A DNA stretch of 64,000 bases, taken from positions 124,001-188,000 of the IMG/VR virus record IMGVR_UViG_3300031552_000001; one strand, written 5' to 3'. The stretch is from a virus. Both the position numbers and the translations under genes were made by a program. Position 1 is the first letter of the stretch; each line of letters starts with the position of its first letter. Under the pieces are notes generated by a model, which had not been told where the DNA came from, ran no database searches, and saw nothing but the letters and a program-made list of their open reading frames with translations. This document shows positions 29,079-52,215 of the stretch, in pieces.

Positions 29079-32000
29079 CTATTGAGCTACCACAGGATTA
29101 GCTTCTTTGACGTCCTGTGCAGCCTTTCCTAAATCGTCTCCCAAAACCTTTCCTACAGCCGTGACAAATCGTTCATTGGCTGCGATATATTTCATTTGCG
29201 ACTCTTCGGCAGCCGTGCGTTGTGCGCCTGCTCCTTGCCCCAATGCCCCCGGAGCCGCTTTAGCTAAAAGCTCTTTTAGTTCCTTAATTTCTCCCCCTGA
29301 TATCTTACCGCCGCTTTTTAGCATCTCATCTACCCTAGCGGCGATTTCTGGGCTTTGAAATAAGTCCACTCCGCTGCTACCTACCAACCTATTCTTAAAC
29401 TTCTCTAGGGCCCTCTCGTCCATTTCTCCCATGTTACCTATTGCTGCTAATCTACCGAGTTGCTGCCCAACCATTCCGCCTCTTCCATACAGCAACAAAT
29501 CTATTTCTTTTCTTCCCATTTTTTGGGAGCTTGCAATTTCACCTAACGCCTGTTCACCGGCAGTAATATCCCCCGCAGCGAAGCTACGTCTTGCACCCTC
29601 CAACCTACTAGTGATCCCCGCTCTTACGCCACTTATTCCCTTAAGAGGGCCTTGAGACCCAGCAATAGACTGCATTCTAGAGCGGCGCTCGTCTTCGTAC
29701 TGCTTCCGCTGAACTGCGGACACGTTACCCATGCTTTGGAGAAATTGCTTTTGCTCTTCTGGAGAGGAAGATTTAAGAAAGGCAGCTATCTTCTCCGCAG
29801 CAACATCGCCGCTACTCACAGCGGCGGCAAACGGGTTGTTAGGGTTGTCCGGAGCTTCCCCGTTAAGGATTTTTGCATACTCTTCGATGTCCTTTGCCAA
29901 AAACTTGTCCGAACTCATTGCCGCTTGAACATCAGATTCATTTATTCCTCGAGACCCTAGATATCTGGCGGCCTCTCCCACCGCGCCGATTAGGGTCCCT
30001 GGAAGAGTGCCAATTCCTCCTGCCAATAGTCCAGAACCACCTCCAGCAACGGCGCCCTTCCCTACCGCCTTTAAGAACCCACCAAACCCAAAGCCACCAG
30101 CGGCTTCAGTCATAGCTTCAATATTATCTTGCCGAAATTCCTCTATCTCCTTCGGGGTGGTGGGGATTTGTATGTCCCTAGCCATCTTTCCGAAGTCCAT
30201 AGCGTGTTTGGCATTTTCGTAACCGAGCTCCTTTTGTCCGGCGGCAATAACGTCTAGTTCCGCTTCCGCAGAGTCCACACCGCCAGGGGAAGCTTCCTCA
30301 AGAAGTCTCATGGCTTTAGCCGCTTCAGGGTCCTGCTTCAACAGCCTGGCTATGGCTTGCCGGTGCTTAACTGGGTCTTTTTTAAGCTTCTCCAGCATCG
30401 CCGAATTTCTGGGTGAGTTGTAAATAGCCCTCATTCTAGCGCTGACTGTATTTAGCGCAGCTCTCTTACCTTCCGTCTCACCGCCAAAAAGGTCCCCCAA
30501 CGAGGCGTTGGTTGCTCTAGTATAGGATCGACGAGCCACCCTTTCCGCATTCTCTAAATTAGCGACGAGCCCTCCTCCTACTGCTACATCACCTACTCCG
30601 GCTTCTCCTGTTCTAGTCTCCATGCCGGCAGCCATCAGCGCCCTAGTTTGGGGAGTCAAAGAACTTCCACCAAATGGGCCGACCCCCAACAAGGCGGATG
30701 CCCCTCCTATTACCGACCCGGCTACCATTCCGGGCACCATTCCAAGTGAGCCCGCTGCGGTTCCTGCCGCCACTCCCCCCATAAACCTAGAGCCAAACCC
30801 CTCCTCCCCAATTCTACCTATAGCTCCGCTAAACATATCCCCTTGCGCAAAAGACTGGCCTACGTTACGAATACCCATGGACTCCCAAGAGGCCGTACTG
30901 CCGCCCCCAGATCCCGCTATCATAAATCTCTGGTTCATCGTCATTCTAGGGATAGCCTTTGTTCTACCCATTATATTGTTAACGGCTCTATCTGTAGCGT
31001 CGCTTAACTGTGCGGCTATGCCCTCTCCGAGCTCGGATAAGGGACGAGTAATCCCTTCCCGATAGGCGTGCTTAACTGCATCTCCTAGCCCCGCCAAACT
31101 TCTGTTTCTTCTCTCGTCGAGACGCCTAAAGGAGTCATCCAAAGCGGCAGCATTTGTTCTATCTTGTTCTGCCTGGATTCTAGGCAGGTCCTTAATCAGT
31201 TTCTGAACCATATCAGCCTGGCGCTGATTGGACCCAGTAATGAGCTGAATGAACCTATTCTGAACGGGATCAGAAGCCCCGGCATAACCGGCTTTAACCA
31301 TAGCCTGCTGTATTCCCTGGGCCATACCAGCAATGCCGCCTTGCTGAGCCATAGACTGGCCTAATTGGTCTGCGCGATTAAAGAAGGAAACAGCTAGGGA
31401 TTTGTTGCCTTGGATTCTTCCTTTTCCTCTTCTCTGCAACTCCTCAACACCAATTTCACCCCTTTGGAATCGAGCTAAAAGCTCCTCATCCATTTGGCCG
31501 GTGAATTCACCCCCTTTAATTTCCCCCAGTCCGGCCATCATTAAACGGCCCATGCCCGTTTGGCCAAAGCCAGACATTACCTGCTGAAGCCCCCCCGCAA
31601 GCATTCGTTGCCCCTCAGCGCCCCCTACACCTCCTGTGAAGTTACGTATATCCTCTTGAGAAAACACCCCAGCTCTAGTTGCCGCAGATACTTGCCCAAA
31701 AAGTTCTTGCCCAAGCCGCGCGCCAGAGGCTAACCGCCCTCCCATCTGATACGACATCTGAGCGCCTTGCTGCATTGCGCCCACCATAGCTCTAGCCCCT
31801 CCAGGCCCAGCCGCTTTTGTCGCGGCAGCAGTCCCTAAAACATCCTGCGCCGTCCACATCCCCATTTGTTGAAGCTGATTAACTAAAGGAAGGGCTTCTT
31901 CAAGAGTGGTGCCTAAAACCTCTGCCATAGTTCTTGTTTGACGAACTATATTCTTGAATCGAGTCTTGAATTGATTAGCATCCCCTACCCCCTGCAACAT

Positions 32001-32759
32001 TCCCATAGACCCGGCTCGGTCCATAAGAGTGCGCATCTCTTTCATGCTAGTCATAACGTCTTCTGACGCTAATTCATGCATAAAAGAGGTTATGTTCTTG
32101 ACCATACCCGCGGCGGGTTTGCCACCTAAACCAGCTCCTGGTTGTCCAAACTGGGGCTCGAAATACTGAGAAGACATACGACGAACATCCTGAAAATTCT
32201 GCACGCCTTCATATATATTCTCCCCAACTTGCCCTATTGCCTTACCTGCTAGATAATAGGGAACAGCTGCCGTTGCGGCACCGGCTATGCCGCCCCCAAG
32301 AGCTCCCAAACCTGCTCTAAGGCCGCCACTAGAAAACGCCCCAGCAATATTGCCAGCCGCGTACCTCAAACCCATCCCCTCGGCGCCCCCCATAACGCCC
32401 GCTCTCATGCCCAAAGTCCCCCCTGTGCCCGCACCAAAAGCCCTACTCACTCCCGTAAAAGGGTCGAGTAATCCTAGAGGGTTTCGGTACCCTAGAAGGC
32501 TCGCTGCCATGGTACCGCCAGCCGCGATACCCGGAATGGCCATTGCAGCCCCTCCAGCTAAACTGGTCCCCAAATCTGGAGCAGAGGGGTCCATATGCAT
32601 ACCGTAAGAAGGAGCCGGAACAGGATAGGGATTAGACATCGAGGAAGACGCGCCGCCTCCTCCCAGCACTCCTACTTGATGGGCAAATGAAATCTGGTTG
32701 GAGAACATTACTTGCTGTCCTCCAACTAGTCCTGAAATCTGAGTACTTGATAACGCCAT
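29079..32759 (-). CDS. Tape-measure-like / internal tail protein
   Basis: 1226 residues, Ala/Gly/Met-rich and mostly helical, with repeated hydrophobic glycine stretches (GGAAMAIPGIAAGGTMAASLLG; GALGGGIAGAATAAVPYYL; AAGTAAGSLGMVPGMVAGSVIGG) and coiled regions, the usual composition of tape-measure proteins with membrane-active segments. If it spans the tail lumen at about 1.5 angstrom per residue, a tail near 180 nm would follow (rule of thumb). No lysozyme-type motif seen. First gene of the minus-strand operon, facing the divergent LacI-like gene. Confidence 0.75.
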   Translation of the reverse strand: MALSSTQISGLVGGQQVMFSNQISFAHQVGVLGGGGASSSMSNPYPVPAPSYGMHMDPSAPDLGTSLAGGAAMAIPGIAAGGTMAASLLGYRNPLGLLDPFTGVSRAFGAGTGGTLGMRAGVMGGAEGMGLRYAAGNIAGAFSSGGLRAGLGALGGGIAGAATAAVPYYLAGKAIGQVGENIYEGVQNFQDVRRMSSQYFEPQFGQPGAGLGGKPAAGMVKNITSFMHELASEDVMTSMKEMRTLMDRAGSMGMLQGVGDANQFKTRFKNIVRQTRTMAEVLGTTLEEALPLVNQLQQMGMWTAQDVLGTAAATKAAGPGGARAMVGAMQQGAQMSYQMGGRLASGARLGQELFGQVSAATRAGVFSQEDIRNFTGGVGGAEGQRMLAGGLQQVMSGFGQTGMGRLMMAGLGEIKGGEFTGQMDEELLARFQRGEIGVEELQRRGKGRIQGNKSLAVSFFNRADQLGQSMAQQGGIAGMAQGIQQAMVKAGYAGASDPVQNRFIQLITGSNQRQADMVQKLIKDLPRIQAEQDRTNAAALDDSFRRLDERRNRSLAGLGDAVKHAYREGITRPLSELGEGIAAQLSDATDRAVNNIMGRTKAIPRMTMNQRFMIAGSGGGSTASWESMGIRNVGQSFAQGDMFSGAIGRIGEEGFGSRFMGGVAAGTAAGSLGMVPGMVAGSVIGGASALLGVGPFGGSSLTPQTRALMAAGMETRTGEAGVGDVAVGGGLVANLENAERVARRSYTRATNASLGDLFGGETEGKRAALNTVSARMRAIYNSPRNSAMLEKLKKDPVKHRQAIARLLKQDPEAAKAMRLLEEASPGGVDSAEAELDVIAAGQKELGYENAKHAMDFGKMARDIQIPTTPKEIEEFRQDNIEAMTEAAGGFGFGGFLKAVGKGAVAGGGSGLLAGGIGTLPGTLIGAVGEAARYLGSRGINESDVQAAMSSDKFLAKDIEEYAKILNGEAPDNPNNPFAAAVSSGDVAAEKIAAFLKSSSPEEQKQFLQSMGNVSAVQRKQYEDERRSRMQSIAGSQGPLKGISGVRAGITSRLEGARRSFAAGDITAGEQALGEIASSQKMGRKEIDLLLYGRGGMVGQQLGRLAAIGNMGEMDERALEKFKNRLVGSSGVDLFQSPEIAARVDEMLKSGGKISGGEIKELKELLAKAAPGALGQGAGAQRTAAEESQMKYIAANERFVTAVGKVLGDDLGKAAQDVKEANPVVAQ

Positions 32760-32902: not shown

Positions 32903-33739
32903 ATGTCAGTCCGCAACCTTGAGATCCTTGCAAGCAATTACGCCTTTTCATTTCCAACAAAAATGCTCACAGCTATCAAAGAAAACGCAGTGTCGGGCCA
33001 AACAATAAACTATCGCACAACATTAGGCGGCAGAGCTGACATAGAGCAGAAGCGCCTAAGCTCTGTTCTAAATATGCGCCCGGTACCTGGAGTCATAGGT
33101 ATTTCTGTCCGGCCAGACCCAGAGTTTGTTGAAATGTACCGGCAAGCAGGAATATCTCTTGTCATCATCGACGAAGAGGCAGAAGGGGCGTCCACTATCG
33201 CAGTCGATAACTACAAGGGCGGGGTATTGGCCGCAAGAAGATTTCTTGAATCTGGAAAGAAAATCCCAGGCATCGTTTGCGGAAGAACAGAAGTCAAAGG
33301 TGGGATCAACGCAGTACAAAGACTACAAGGGTTCCAAGACACTCTGGAAAGCGCTGGAAGAGAGAAAGTTCTTTCTCAAAACATCAAACAAGTCCTAGAT
33401 TACTCTTACCAGGATGGGATCGATTCCATGCAGGAATTCTTCCGTCAACAAAACCCACCTGACTTCATATTCTCCGCAGCAGGCGACGATTGCGCCGTCG
33501 GAATATTGAGAGCCTCTGTGAATTTTGGACTTAGTGTTCCAAAGGACCTCTCGGTCATGGGCTTCGATGATCTGGAAATGGCAAAAATGACTACTCCCAC
33601 ATTAACGACGATACGGCAGCCTATAAAAGAAATTGCTGCAAGAGCGTATGGCATAGCGTCTACTATGGGGAATAGGTACATAGACAGCCCAGAACAGATA
33701 GTACTGGAACCAACTCTTGTAGAAAGAGACTCGGCGTAA
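32903..33739 (+). CDS. LacI/GalR-type ligand-binding protein lacking the DNA-binding head
   Basis: 278 residues. The sequence follows the LacI effector-domain plan: PGVIGISVRPD, ISLVIIDEEAEG, AVDNYKGGVLAARRFLESGKK, VQRLQGFQDTLESAG, PPDFIFSAAGDDCAVGIL, VPKDLSVMGFDDLEMA and TPTLTTIRQPIKEIA. The roughly 60-residue N-terminal helix-turn-helix and hinge of LacI proteins are absent; the ATG (TGGAG upstream) starts directly with the sensor fold. Without a head it cannot bind DNA in the usual way and may sense a sugar or nucleotide, or act through a partner. A perfect terminator follows. Very unusual as a phage gene. Confidence 0.85.
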   Translation: MSVRNLEILASNYAFSFPTKMLTAIKENAVSGQTINYRTTLGGRADIEQKRLSSVLNMRPVPGVIGISVRPDPEFVEMYRQAGISLVIIDEEAEGASTIAVDNYKGGVLAARRFLESGKKIPGIVCGRTEVKGGINAVQRLQGFQDTLESAGREKVLSQNIKQVLDYSYQDGIDSMQEFFRQQNPPDFIFSAAGDDCAVGILRASVNFGLSVPKDLSVMGFDDLEMAKMTTPTLTTIRQPIKEIAARAYGIASTMGNRYIDSPEQIVLEPTLVERDSA

Positions 33740-33750
33740 CCCAAAACAAC

Positions 33751-33777
33751 AAAGGCCTCCTAACGGGAGGCCTTTTT
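33751..33777 (+). terminator. Rho-independent terminator after LacI-like gene
   Basis: AGGCCTCC, four-base loop TAAC, then GGAGGCCT running into TTTTT; a textbook intrinsic terminator 12 bases after the stop codon. Confidence 0.9.
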
Positions 33778-33802
33778 AGCTGTAAAAATAAGCCAGCATA
33801 TG

Positions 33803-33811
33803 GGTATAAGA
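33803..33811 (+). promoter_or_regulatory. GGTATAAGA promoter-like motif upstream of a structured RNA
   Basis: Exact GGTATAAGA, with TGTAAAAA about 22 bases upstream. No plus-strand gene follows for almost 800 bases; instead an RNA-like structure begins six bases downstream. It may drive that RNA. Confidence 0.5.
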
Positions 33812-33816
33812 CGAAT

Positions 33817-33916
33817 GTTGGAACTACGAACGTGGAGCGCGACCTTGATGGTACGCAGCAAGACCGTCGTAGTGTCTGGTGGCGACATAAAGAGGCCTCA
33901 GCTACCGGACTCCAAC
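33817..33916 (+). ncRNA. Candidate structured RNA, three-way junction
   Basis: Three helices meet without unpaired bases: outer GTTGGA 817-822 / TCCAAC 911-916; second ACTACGA 823-829 / TCGTAGT 867-873; third GTCTGGTGGC 874-883 / GCTACCGGAC 901-910 (two G-U pairs); positions are 33xxx. The second arm contains an inner GCG-ACC/GGT-A-CGC hairpin. The third arm's loop holds the self-complementary octamer GAGGCCTC, which could allow dimer formation. It lies just after GGTATAAGA and the preceding terminator. A weak AAGAA/TTCTT hairpin with a T-run ends near 33952. No known family recognised. Confidence 0.55.
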
Positions 33917-33918
33917 AA

Positions 33919-34218
33919 TTACCCTCGCCCCAAGAATCCGTGCTTCTTTTTTATCTCCTCTTGCTGCTGTTGATTTGCGTCAGCTCCTTCTGTAACAGCT
34001 TCGACTTCTGTCTTATCTTCAGTCTTACAAAGTATGCGAGCGTAGTACCCCCTGACCGCATTCCTACATCGTCTACACAGATCTCCAAACGACGTCTTCT
34101 CGTTTGAGAATGTAGCCTCAAATTCTGGGCCTGCGGGAGAAGGCAACTCAGATACGTTTTGGTTCTCTTTTCTCCCGCACCTATCGCACACTACTTCAAC
34201 TACATCTCTTCTGGCCAT
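33919..34218 (-). CDS. Small zinc-ribbon protein
   Basis: 99 residues from ATG 34218 (AGGAG five bases upstream). MARRDVVEVVCDRCGRKE and a later DLCRRCRNAVRGYY give two CxxC pairs, a Cys4 ribbon. The C-terminus is Glu/Gln-rich (NQQQQEEIKKKHG). Probably a nucleic-acid- or protein-binding accessory factor; function unknown. Confidence 0.8.
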   Translation of the reverse strand: MARRDVVEVVCDRCGRKENQNVSELPSPAGPEFEATFSNEKTSFGDLCRRCRNAVRGYYARILCKTEDKTEVEAVTEGADANQQQQEEIKKKHGFLGRG

Positions 34219-34268
34219 TTTAGCTCCTCTTATATAAGTTACAGACCTTTTGGTTCTCATGCCTCTGA

Positions 34269-34511
34269 TTATGTATTTTGTGGGTATGTGATGTGGCCGC
34301 GCAATTTCTGATATATGTATCCTTCCACAGCCAGCCTTTCAATCTTCACCAAACCATCCGAGTAGTCAGGATGAAGAACCATACTAGCCTCGAAAGCTTC
34401 TACCTCTTTTCGGCATAAGACTCGCAGAGGAAGAGCATTACCCCTATCAGACTCTTTCTTAGCTTCAGTCAGCTCTGACTCTGAAAAAGGAAATTCTAGT
34501 TCAAGCTTCAT
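34269..34511 (-). CDS. Small hypothetical protein
   Basis: 80 residues, mixed alpha/beta (MKLELEFPFSESELTEAKKE; GLVKIERLAVEGYIYQKLRG). The start is preceded by AAAAGGAGC. Same direction as, and 50 bases upstream of, the zinc-ribbon gene. No motif recognised. Confidence 0.7.
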   Translation of the reverse strand: MKLELEFPFSESELTEAKKESDRGNALPLRVLCRKEVEAFEASMVLHPDYSDGLVKIERLAVEGYIYQKLRGHITYPQNT

Positions 34512-35331: not shown

Positions 35332-36744
35332 ATGAGAAGATTCTTACAGCATCAAGGAAGAACAAGTGCACCTCAGTTATGGGAAATAGAAGTATTCGGC
35401 AACGCCGTAACACTAACATGGGGCCAACTTGGCGGCGCTATGCAACACACCACTCAAACCTTCAGTGGCGTAAATATAGGTAAAGCCAATGAAAAGACTC
35501 CTATACAGGTAGCACAAGAGTGGGCCGATAGACAAATACTTCTACGTACCAGAAAAGGGTACGTAGAAGTCGACCTTGAGACAAATAACCCAATAGAGGA
35601 GGCAGCCTCCTCTGAAATAGACTGGGAGAAGGAGCTGCCTCAGAATCTTCGGTTCTTCAAACCACAAAATAGTCTTAATGCCTACTGCACGAAACTTCTA
35701 CAAGAAAAGAAAGCTACACTCCTGCGAAAAAGAGACGGGATGATGCACATCCTCTTAGTAAAAGAGGACGGAGATGTGGCCGTATACTCATCTACGCTTC
35801 AGGCGTGCCATAAAGACGAGCCTGAAATTCCGTGGGCCAGAAGATACCCTCATCTAGTAAAAGAGGTACGAGATTTAAATTTACCGGGCGGGACTGTGTT
35901 GTTGGGGGAGTTATGTACTGCCGCATGTCACGGGCACAAGGACACATTCGGCATGCCCGTAGACGATTACAATTACGTAAGCACCATCACGAAATCCCTG
36001 ACAAAATTAGCGCTAGAGAAGCAGAAAGAAAAAGGGTTCCTAGGTTTTTGTATTTGGGACATTGGGTTTTGGGCAAAAGAATGCGTCCTACAATCATGGA
36101 CAGCTGATCAGCGATTCCTAAAAATAGGACAAATCCTGAACAACTCCAGTCGTCTTTACTTGACCTTTCCAGAAAGCGTGTACCTGCAAAGCTCTTATGC
36201 TGTCGTCCAGTCTTGGGATTCTAACGACCTAGAAATGGACTATGAATCCGATGATATGAGGAATGAGGTGTTGGAGCTCGCTAAAACCTTACAGTGGGAA
36301 GGTTGGGTAGTTATAGACGGGAAAGTTCCTTACGACAGCAGGTCTCATAGCTTTCACGGTAAAGCCGAACGGCCGAAGTTTATATGTAAACTAAAGCCTA
36401 AACTAGAAGCAGACTTTATAGCTAGATGGGACCCAGACAACGGCATAGGTAGTTGGGGTAAGGGTAAGAAGTCTGCTGGAGTAGGTTCTGTAAATCTGTA
36501 CCTATGGGATCCTGAAAAGAAAGAAGAGGTTTTCATCTGCGAAGCCGGAGGCGGTCTCACTGACGCAGATGTAAAATACTTCGCCAATCCTAGACTTTAC
36601 CCACTTGTATGGGTTGTCGAATTTGACTCTTGGACCCCAAAGGGGGCTTTACGATTCCCTGTGTTTTTAAGAGAACGAAGCGACAAAAAGCCAGAAGAAT
36701 GCACAACAGACCAGAGACCTTCACCAAAAGGAGAAGAGGAATGA
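35332..36744 (+). CDS. ATP-dependent DNA ligase with N-terminal WGR domain
   Basis: 470 residues. Residues 1-80 form a WGR-like domain (LWEIEVFGNAVTLTWGQLGG, then RKGYVEV), a module known from PARPs that contacts DNA ends. The nucleotidyltransferase core follows: motif I K133-R-D-G, motif III LLGEL (E193), motif IV E323-G-W-V-V and motif V K353-L-K-P. It would seal nicks using ATP through a lysyl-AMP intermediate. The neighbouring polynucleotide-kinase-like gene suggests a DNA or RNA end-repair pair. Disordered basic/acidic tail. Overlaps the next start as ATGA. Confidence 0.88.
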   Translation: MRRFLQHQGRTSAPQLWEIEVFGNAVTLTWGQLGGAMQHTTQTFSGVNIGKANEKTPIQVAQEWADRQILLRTRKGYVEVDLETNNPIEEAASSEIDWEKELPQNLRFFKPQNSLNAYCTKLLQEKKATLLRKRDGMMHILLVKEDGDVAVYSSTLQACHKDEPEIPWARRYPHLVKEVRDLNLPGGTVLLGELCTAACHGHKDTFGMPVDDYNYVSTITKSLTKLALEKQKEKGFLGFCIWDIGFWAKECVLQSWTADQRFLKIGQILNNSSRLYLTFPESVYLQSSYAVVQSWDSNDLEMDYESDDMRNEVLELAKTLQWEGWVVIDGKVPYDSRSHSFHGKAERPKFICKLKPKLEADFIARWDPDNGIGSWGKGKKSAGVGSVNLYLWDPEKKEEVFICEAGGGLTDADVKYFANPRLYPLVWVVEFDSWTPKGALRFPVFLRERSDKKPEECTTDQRPSPKGEEE

Positions 36745-38904: not shown

Positions 38905-39915
38905 GTGGAACCCAAGAAGCTAATCAATCATTTCGTTATTTGCCTAGACCGCAGTGGCTCAATGCAGCCTATACGCAAAAACGCCGTAGATACGTATAAC
39001 CAAAACGCTAGATCTATCCGAGATGGGGCTAAAAACAGCGGGCAGGAGGCTACAATCTCCCTTACAACATTTGGAGGGAGTGTATTAACCCATCACTTTT
39101 GCGATCCGGTAGATAGCTTAAGTAGCGAGTACTCTGACTACCGCCCTATGGGGACCACTCCGCTATTCGACGCAGTAGCTAATATGATCTATAAGTTGAA
39201 GGACCGTAAAGACTCTGAAGACGACAATGTGAGCTACATGTTCATAATCATCACGGATGGCGAAGAGAATGCTTCTAGCATCCAAGCCGATGAATTCAAT
39301 CGATTAGTGGCTAGTGTTCAAAAGACAGACCGTTGGAGCTTCGCCTTTCTAGTGCCCCCAAACGCCGCCCGTAACTTCTGCCTCAAATTCAATATCCCAG
39401 AAGGGAATGTGAAAGAGTGGGAGGCAACTGCACGGGGGATGCAAGAAGCTGCTCGGCAGGTAGACGCAGGAATTAGCAGCTATTATGCAACTCGTTCGTT
39501 GGGGATGAAGAGTACGACTGGCTTCTTTCAAACAGATATGGCCAAAATCTCGGTACATGAAGTAAAAAACCGACTGGTTGATATCAGGGACAAGGTAAAG
39601 CTTATTGACGTGAACCGCACTTCGGCTATTCGAGAGTTTGTAGAGCGCGAATTAGGGCAAAGCTACCAAACTGGGCGCGCTTTCTACCAGCTCATAAAAG
39701 ACGAGAAGATACAGTACCACAAGAAGGTCATGCTCAAGGACCGAGGAGATAACGCGGTATATGCCGGCACGGAGGCTCGTCATCTGCTTGGACTACCTGA
39801 TGGGGTGGATGTTCGTGTTCGCCCTGGAGATCATGCTAACTGGGATATTTTTGTACAAAGCACCAGCGTCAACCGAAAACTTCTACCAGGCACTAAACTC
39901 CTGTACCTACTCTAG
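38905..39915 (+). CDS. von Willebrand factor A (VWA) domain protein
   Basis: 336 residues from GTG 38905 (AAAGGAG six bases upstream). MIDAS metal site: D15-x-S-x-S (LDRSGSM), a GTTPLFDAV threonine loop and IIITDGEEN. The remainder has a helical linker and a C-terminal beta domain (KKVMLKDRGDNAVYAG...VFVQ-type ending WDIFVQSTSVNRKLLPG) that looks specific to phage VWA proteins. VWA modules bind partner proteins through Mg2+; role in the phage unknown. Confidence 0.85.
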   Translation: MEPKKLINHFVICLDRSGSMQPIRKNAVDTYNQNARSIRDGAKNSGQEATISLTTFGGSVLTHHFCDPVDSLSSEYSDYRPMGTTPLFDAVANMIYKLKDRKDSEDDNVSYMFIIITDGEENASSIQADEFNRLVASVQKTDRWSFAFLVPPNAARNFCLKFNIPEGNVKEWEATARGMQEAARQVDAGISSYYATRSLGMKSTTGFFQTDMAKISVHEVKNRLVDIRDKVKLIDVNRTSAIREFVERELGQSYQTGRAFYQLIKDEKIQYHKKVMLKDRGDNAVYAGTEARHLLGLPDGVDVRVRPGDHANWDIFVQSTSVNRKLLPGTKLLYLL

Positions 39916-52000: not shown

Positions 52001-52009
52001 GGTATAAGA
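52001..52009 (+). promoter_or_regulatory. GGTATAAGA promoter-like motif
   Basis: Exact GGTATAAGA with TGAAAG about 19 bases upstream, about 205 bases before the histone-fold-like gene. The long gap contains the structured leader. Confidence 0.55.
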
Positions 52010-52020
52010 AAATTGGAACC

Positions 52021-52188
52021 CAATAGTGGCTCTTACATTACCAACAAGAACATTTCCTTAAAACAGTATGAGCCCACTGTTGAGTTGCCTAGTCTCCGCG
52101 GTGCGGGTTCGGGCTTTCCTAAATTTGTTCCTCCAATAAGTGTAGTTCTCCGGGGAAAGTCCGAACCTGCGCCGTAATTATTGTTTTT
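52021..52188 (+). ncRNA. Candidate structured leader or small RNA with 21-bp helix
   Basis: Stem A: CAATAGTGGCTC 52021-52032 pairs GAGCCCACTGTTG 52070-52082 with one bulged C. Stem B: 52099-52119 pairs 52154-52174 over 21 uninterrupted base pairs including three G-U pairs, with a 34-base loop. A T-run follows nine bases later at 52183-52188. Stem B is long enough to be an RNase III target. It begins after GGTATAAGA and precedes the histone-fold-like gene by under 30 bases, so it may be a leader or a separate RNA. Confidence 0.5.
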
Positions 52189-52215
52189 TACAACCCACTC
52201 CTCTAAGATGCGCTC

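Follow-up and report, generated by a model that had tools for sequence, protein, structure and literature searches.

Self-complementary loop sequences with purine flanks are a feature of the retroviral dimer-initiation (kissing) loop, and only a small number of structured phage RNAs are backed by comparison between genomes. The pRNAs of phi29-type phages have left and right loops that are complementary over 3-4 nt (PMC12670572) and share about 12% of their sequence (PMC5340915). The locus described here lies in a 64,000-nt window, the whole stretch of DNA that was analysed, which spans bases 124001-188000 of an uncultivated virus record of 192,137 bases (a phage of about 192 kb). We read positions 33812-33921 of this window, with a probability of roughly 0.62, as a standalone plus-strand non-coding RNA gene that has an upstream box as its promoter, folds into a three-way junction and acts in trans.

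Both ends of the record are alike in sequence around copies of this box at 80 and 192079, suggesting that the assembly is probably circularly closed or terminally redundant. The genome codes for a phage DNA polymerase, a DnaB-like helicase, a UvsX-like recombinase, a major head protein and a sheath-like protein, while a search for the terminase (phrog_2) gave no match in the genome, and the phage is a member of an uncultivated large-phage group with genomes of about 200 kb. On one side of the locus lies a minus-strand gene for a large protein, probably a tail protein (29079-32759), followed by a plus-strand gene for a LacI-type ligand-binding protein (32903-33739), which lacks the DNA-binding head, its PHROG match starting at profile position 68. 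The latter gene occurs at this place in this phage only (none of the five relative records tested and none of the corresponding loci carries it) and ends in a GGCCTCC hairpin with a T-run (33751-33775), the preceding terminator of the preliminary description, which was recovered in the terminator scan. On the other side are two minus-strand genes, one for a small Cys4 (zinc-ribbon-like) protein (33919-34260; homologues in G002, G005, L050 and L053) and one for an 80-aa protein (34269-34511; homologues in G002, G005, G006 and L050).

Several further genes deserve mention in their own right. Two different ATP-dependent ligase-like proteins (phrog_114) are encoded in the one phage genome, at L016:15200-16756 and at 35332-36744 of the window. 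A VWA-domain protein (phrog_26613) is encoded on the plus strand at 38905-39912, with Caulobacter phage Cr30, Mycobacterium phage Myrna and large Streptomyces phages among its named relatives. A PurZ homologue (2-aminoadenylosuccinate synthetase, phrog_1211, E 4.5e-54) at L014:15450-16634 (record 35450-36634) is accompanied by a PolA-type DNA polymerase, and the phage may have 2-aminoadenine (Z) DNA, as judged from these two proteins.

The minimum free energy (MFE) structure of the plus strand at 33812-33921 (-43.4; z -4.1 to -4.3, with about 0.1% of shuffles equally stable) consists of helix 1 (33816-33822 with 33911-33917, 7 bp), helix 2 (33823-33829 with 33867-33873, 7 bp) and helix 3 (33874-33883 with 33901-33910, 10 bp, two of them G-U pairs), which join with no unpaired junction base. 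Helix 2 carries a head with an inner hairpin (33830-33866). This interval is the predicted structured core, and the wider interval of the preliminary description weakens the signal to a z of -1.5. That description had given helices of 6, 7 and 10 bp, G-U pairs in the third and a junction free of unpaired bases; all of these were found, except that helix 1 has 7 bp rather than 6. Its remark that such a structure is hard to explain by chance was likewise borne out by the structure prediction against shuffled controls that it had proposed. A junction whose helices all have at least 6 bp with at most 4 unpaired bases arose in 1 of 2000 dinucleotide shuffles, and one with zero unpaired bases in none of the 2000. 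Scanning both strands of the whole phage returned the former type of junction in 24 of 32,004 windows, among which this locus has the lowest energy and is alone in combining zero unpaired bases with helices of at least 7 bp.

No DNA relative was found in a DNA similarity search of the phage collection, the upstream terminator being the sole match, and viral contigs scanned for exact 21-mers gave no matches. Related viral contigs were reached via the DNA polymerase (59-72% identity) and further ones via neighbour genes, whereas prokaryote genomes searched with the neighbour genes yielded no relatives. A non-coding slot occurs at the same place in six phages, namely this one, G002, G005, G006, L050 (G007) and L063 (G008). 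In the relatives it lies next to where the large minus-strand gene begins, a gene with homologues in all slot-bearing relatives. On its other side come one or both of the small minus-strand genes, except in L063, where a frame of similar size takes their place. The ligase-like gene comes after the small genes in G002, G005, G006 and L050, and the slot is absent from L062 and L053.

The slot of G006, a distant relative, was located by gene order alone, not by structure, and at minimum energy it adopts the same junction of three helices, with lengths of 7, 8 and 6 bp and 4 unpaired bases, a result reached by 4 of 2000 of its own shuffles. A covariance model built from the RNA of this phage alone ranked that slot at the top (E 0.077) when 57 kb of relatives were searched, and a search with the same single-sequence model within the slot gave an E value of 2.8e-4. 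In helices 1 and 2 each of the 14 pairs is a standard one in both phages, with five double changes, two one-sided changes, seven unchanged pairs and none broken; in helix 2, four of the seven pairs are altered on both sides in G006. Controls with slid partners gave 0-1 double changes against the five observed, and 22 of 500 letter shuffles reached the observed covariation score, which covers one genome pair, helix 3 being present in G006 but out of register and not aligned pairwise. In the helix 2 head, TGGA, CGACC and AAGACCG (33860-33866) are common to both phages. Sequence alignment of the two RNAs in the same register gave p 0.0035 when gaps were cheap and 0.08 when they were costly; a MAFFT sequence alignment fell out of register, and the covariance model was used instead. 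With two sequences compared, the compensatory changes in G006 are supportive of a conserved fold, not overwhelming.

In G002, G005, L050 and L063 neither covariance model found the same junction. The two-sequence model (this RNA with G006), which has low sensitivity, missed all four slots, its top match being an unrelated phi29 sequence. The slots of G005 (z -1.9) and L063 (z -3.1) are moderately structured, and that of G002 (z 0.04) is no better than its shuffles, with a sequence similarity between G002 and G005 at p 0.005. The fold has diverged or is absent in these four relatives, through either fast RNA evolution, as in pRNAs, or different contents in some slots. The covariance among relatives that the preliminary description had proposed as a check was seen in part, as five double changes in G006 but no shared fold in the other four. 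Two candidate conserved cores were rejected: exact short matches of GTGGAGCGCGACC in G003 and G005 lie in a VERDL-coding frame, do not share the fold and were put down to chance, and a helix 2 core picked out by eye as common to L050 (GGAGCGC...AGCAAGACC) was not significant (p 0.33).

Directly 5' of the RNA core stands the box GGTATAAGA (33803-33811, plus strand), the motif copy reported in the preliminary description. It is enriched in the window (5 copies against 0.55 expected), and in the whole record 10 forward copies and 1 reverse copy were counted (control 2 and 0), of which those at 80 and 192079, with the same flanks, probably represent a single site counted twice where the ends overlap. 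The pattern GGNATAAG occurs forward and reverse 10 and 1 times in G002, 21 and 5 times in G005 and 14 and 4 times in G006, against 3 and 2, 6 and 2, and 7 and 9 times for the reversed pattern; in G007 and G008 it is found on both strands. Several copies of the box lie about 45-55 nt 5' of a ribosome site and start codon, and that of the RNA is one of the copies with no credible same-strand gene after it. Since the box is enriched, lies largely on one strand in the clearest relatives and has several copies placed before ribosome sites and start codons, a GGNATAAG-like box probably serves these phages as a promoter element, and it offers a way into the transcription programme that they follow. 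Boxes stand just 5' of the RNA in five of the six slots (GGTATAAGA, GATATAAGA, GGCATAAGG, GGGATAAGT and GGCATAAGG), oriented along the plus strand, and the slot of L050 has GGTGTAGAG only. The RNA may have a promoter of its own in this phage-type box, which is conserved in the slot.

A second candidate non-coding RNA preceded by GGTATAAGA was found via the box at about 52001-52190 of the window (plus strand). It comprises a 23-bp rod hairpin, a 5' hairpin and a T-run, is more strongly folded (z about -6.2 to -6.8) than the RNA at 33812-33921, has no plausible frame directly after its box, and has TTGGAAC near its 5' end in common with the RNA at 33816.

Computation shows the fold, how rare it is, the retention of the slot, the box and the paired changes found in one relative; that the RNA is transcribed, acts in trans or dimerises is inferred. 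The locus is probably a real, uncatalogued phage RNA gene without an assigned function. An unlikely alternative is that it works in cis within the minus-strand operon, which would run from the small genes through the slot to the tail gene, as a leader, a processing site or an insulator between the Cys4 gene and the tail gene, the plus-strand fold being a by-product. The slot is indeed flanked by minus-strand genes in the relatives, and the minus strand of this phage folds too (z -3.0), but the plus strand folds better here (z -4.1), in G006 (-2.8 against -0.9) and in L063 (-3.1 against -0.9). In addition, the G-U pairs, which belong to helix 3 here and to helices 1 and 2 in G006, become A-C mismatches on the minus strand, so that the strand-specific z and the G-U pairs in both phages favour the plus strand. 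The plus orientation of the box in five of six slots also speaks against a cis element, as do the plus-strand LacI-like gene and its terminator, which stand between the RNA and the tail gene here.

Still less probable is a fold that arose by chance in a neutrally evolving gap. It would agree with the failure to see the fold in four of the six slots and with the similar scores that permissive model searches give to unrelated sequence, but it sits poorly with the sole junction of its kind among 32,004 windows and with the recurrence of that junction, with five double changes, at the syntenic place in G006.

The preliminary description also held that the locus codes for nothing on the plus strand. 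Two mechanically called ORFs do run through the region on that strand (33800-33973, 57 aa, and 33832-34107, 91 aa), but the 57-aa frame begins 5' of the box motif, and no peptide resembling either ORF is kept in the related slots. We regard it as very improbable that the locus is the 5' start of a small-protein mRNA: an ATG follows soon after the box in four slots, and in L050 a ribosome site lies ahead of a 44-aa frame, whereas the frames are unlike in length and sequence, that of G005 stops at once, this phage and G006 have no ribosome site, and the base changes preserve pairs. At the 3' side, a weak possible terminator (AAGAA-TCCGTGC-TTCTT with a T-run, 33932-33952, plus strand) was recognised from sequence and fold inside the minus-strand gene, at its 3' end; this AU-rich hairpin was not flagged by the terminator scan.

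The self-complementary sequence announced for the loop was found as GAGGCCTC at 33892-33899 in the loop of helix 3, where it is predicted to be mostly unpaired (probability 0.67-0.99); an 8-nt palindrome appears in the shuffled helix 3 loop with p=0.016. G006 has a palindrome GGGCGCCC (p=0.13) and G002 has GGGGCCCC, for both of which partial or extensive pairing within the monomer is predicted, and no 8-nt palindrome stands at the corresponding place in G005 or L063. The loop (GAGGCCUC) thus appears accessible in this phage, but because its palindrome is weakly conserved, dimerisation is put forward as a hypothesis only. The earlier claim of a non-coding three-way-junction RNA after GGTATAAGA is accordingly upheld by the shuffles, the scan, the slot and G006, the self-pairing loop being its weak part. 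The sequence AGGCCTC is common to the arms of the LacI-gene terminator (33751-33775) and the loop of the RNA (33892-33899). Pairing between them is conceivable; the sharing is probably a coincidence, given that the relatives have no LacI-like gene.

For a standalone, trans-acting RNA gene, the following course may be envisaged. The GGTATAAGA box would act as promoter of a plus-strand RNA of about 110 nt, helices 1-3 would provide a rigid scaffold, the helix 2 head (TGGA...CGACC...AAGACCG, common to G006) could be a binding site for a protein or another RNA, and the GAGGCCUC loop of helix 3 could serve, in this phage, as a docking or dimerising loop. The most likely role would be that of a regulatory or assembly RNA, made together with plus-strand genes including replication genes. 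With its delimited gene, its likely class of promoter, its conserved place in the group, its compensated fold and no match in Rfam, the RNA lends itself to study by probing and deletion.

Rfam release 15 matched neither this locus nor the relatives. The pRNA model RF00044 found nothing in the window or the relatives (phi29 control, 145 bits), and the gp16-type packaging ATPase PF05894 is absent in this phage (G000), G005, G006 and G007 (phi29 control, 697 bits). Since both the pRNA model and the phi29 ATPase fail here and succeed in phi29, the RNA is not classed as a pRNA. A central three-way junction, a pRNA feature, is present here, and a 3-nt loop match (UGA/UCA) between the inner loop of helix 2 and the loop of helix 3 was seen by eye, of a kind that chance often produces between loops as long as these (5 and 17 nt). 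A structural or packaging RNA acting like phi29 pRNA and multimerising by its loops in a virion assembly machine would fit the similar size, the one closing helix with two arms, the fold kept despite sequence drift, the self-complementary loop and the neighbouring structural gene, but is highly improbable in view of the unmatched RF00044 model, the missing phi29-type ATPase here and in three relatives, the sheath-like protein and genomes of about 200 kb in the group, and the lack, as judged by eye, of a distinctive left/right loop pair. It is equally far-fetched that the RNA is the founder of a large-phage RNA family that self-assembles by palindromic loops in virion assembly or packaging, convergent with phi29 pRNA.

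Compared with phi29-type pRNA (RF00044), the RNA is alike in being phage-encoded and about 110-120 nt long, with a central junction, two hairpin arms, a sequence that drifts while the fold stays, and a loop able to pair between molecules. It differs in having no Rfam match, no gp16-type ATPase in its genome, one self-complementary loop where, by eye, no distinctive left/right loop complementarity was seen, zero unpaired junction bases, and a genome that is ten times larger and codes for a sheath-like protein. With the retroviral dimer-initiation loop it shares a self-complementary, purine-flanked loop, but it is not an RNA genome, and its putative dimerisation is weakly conserved. Set beside phage-encoded small regulatory RNAs (reviewed in PMC12197685), it stands apart by its three-way-junction fold and by having no known sequence family or target, and it resembles them as a short intergenic non-coding gene with its own, here putative, promoter.
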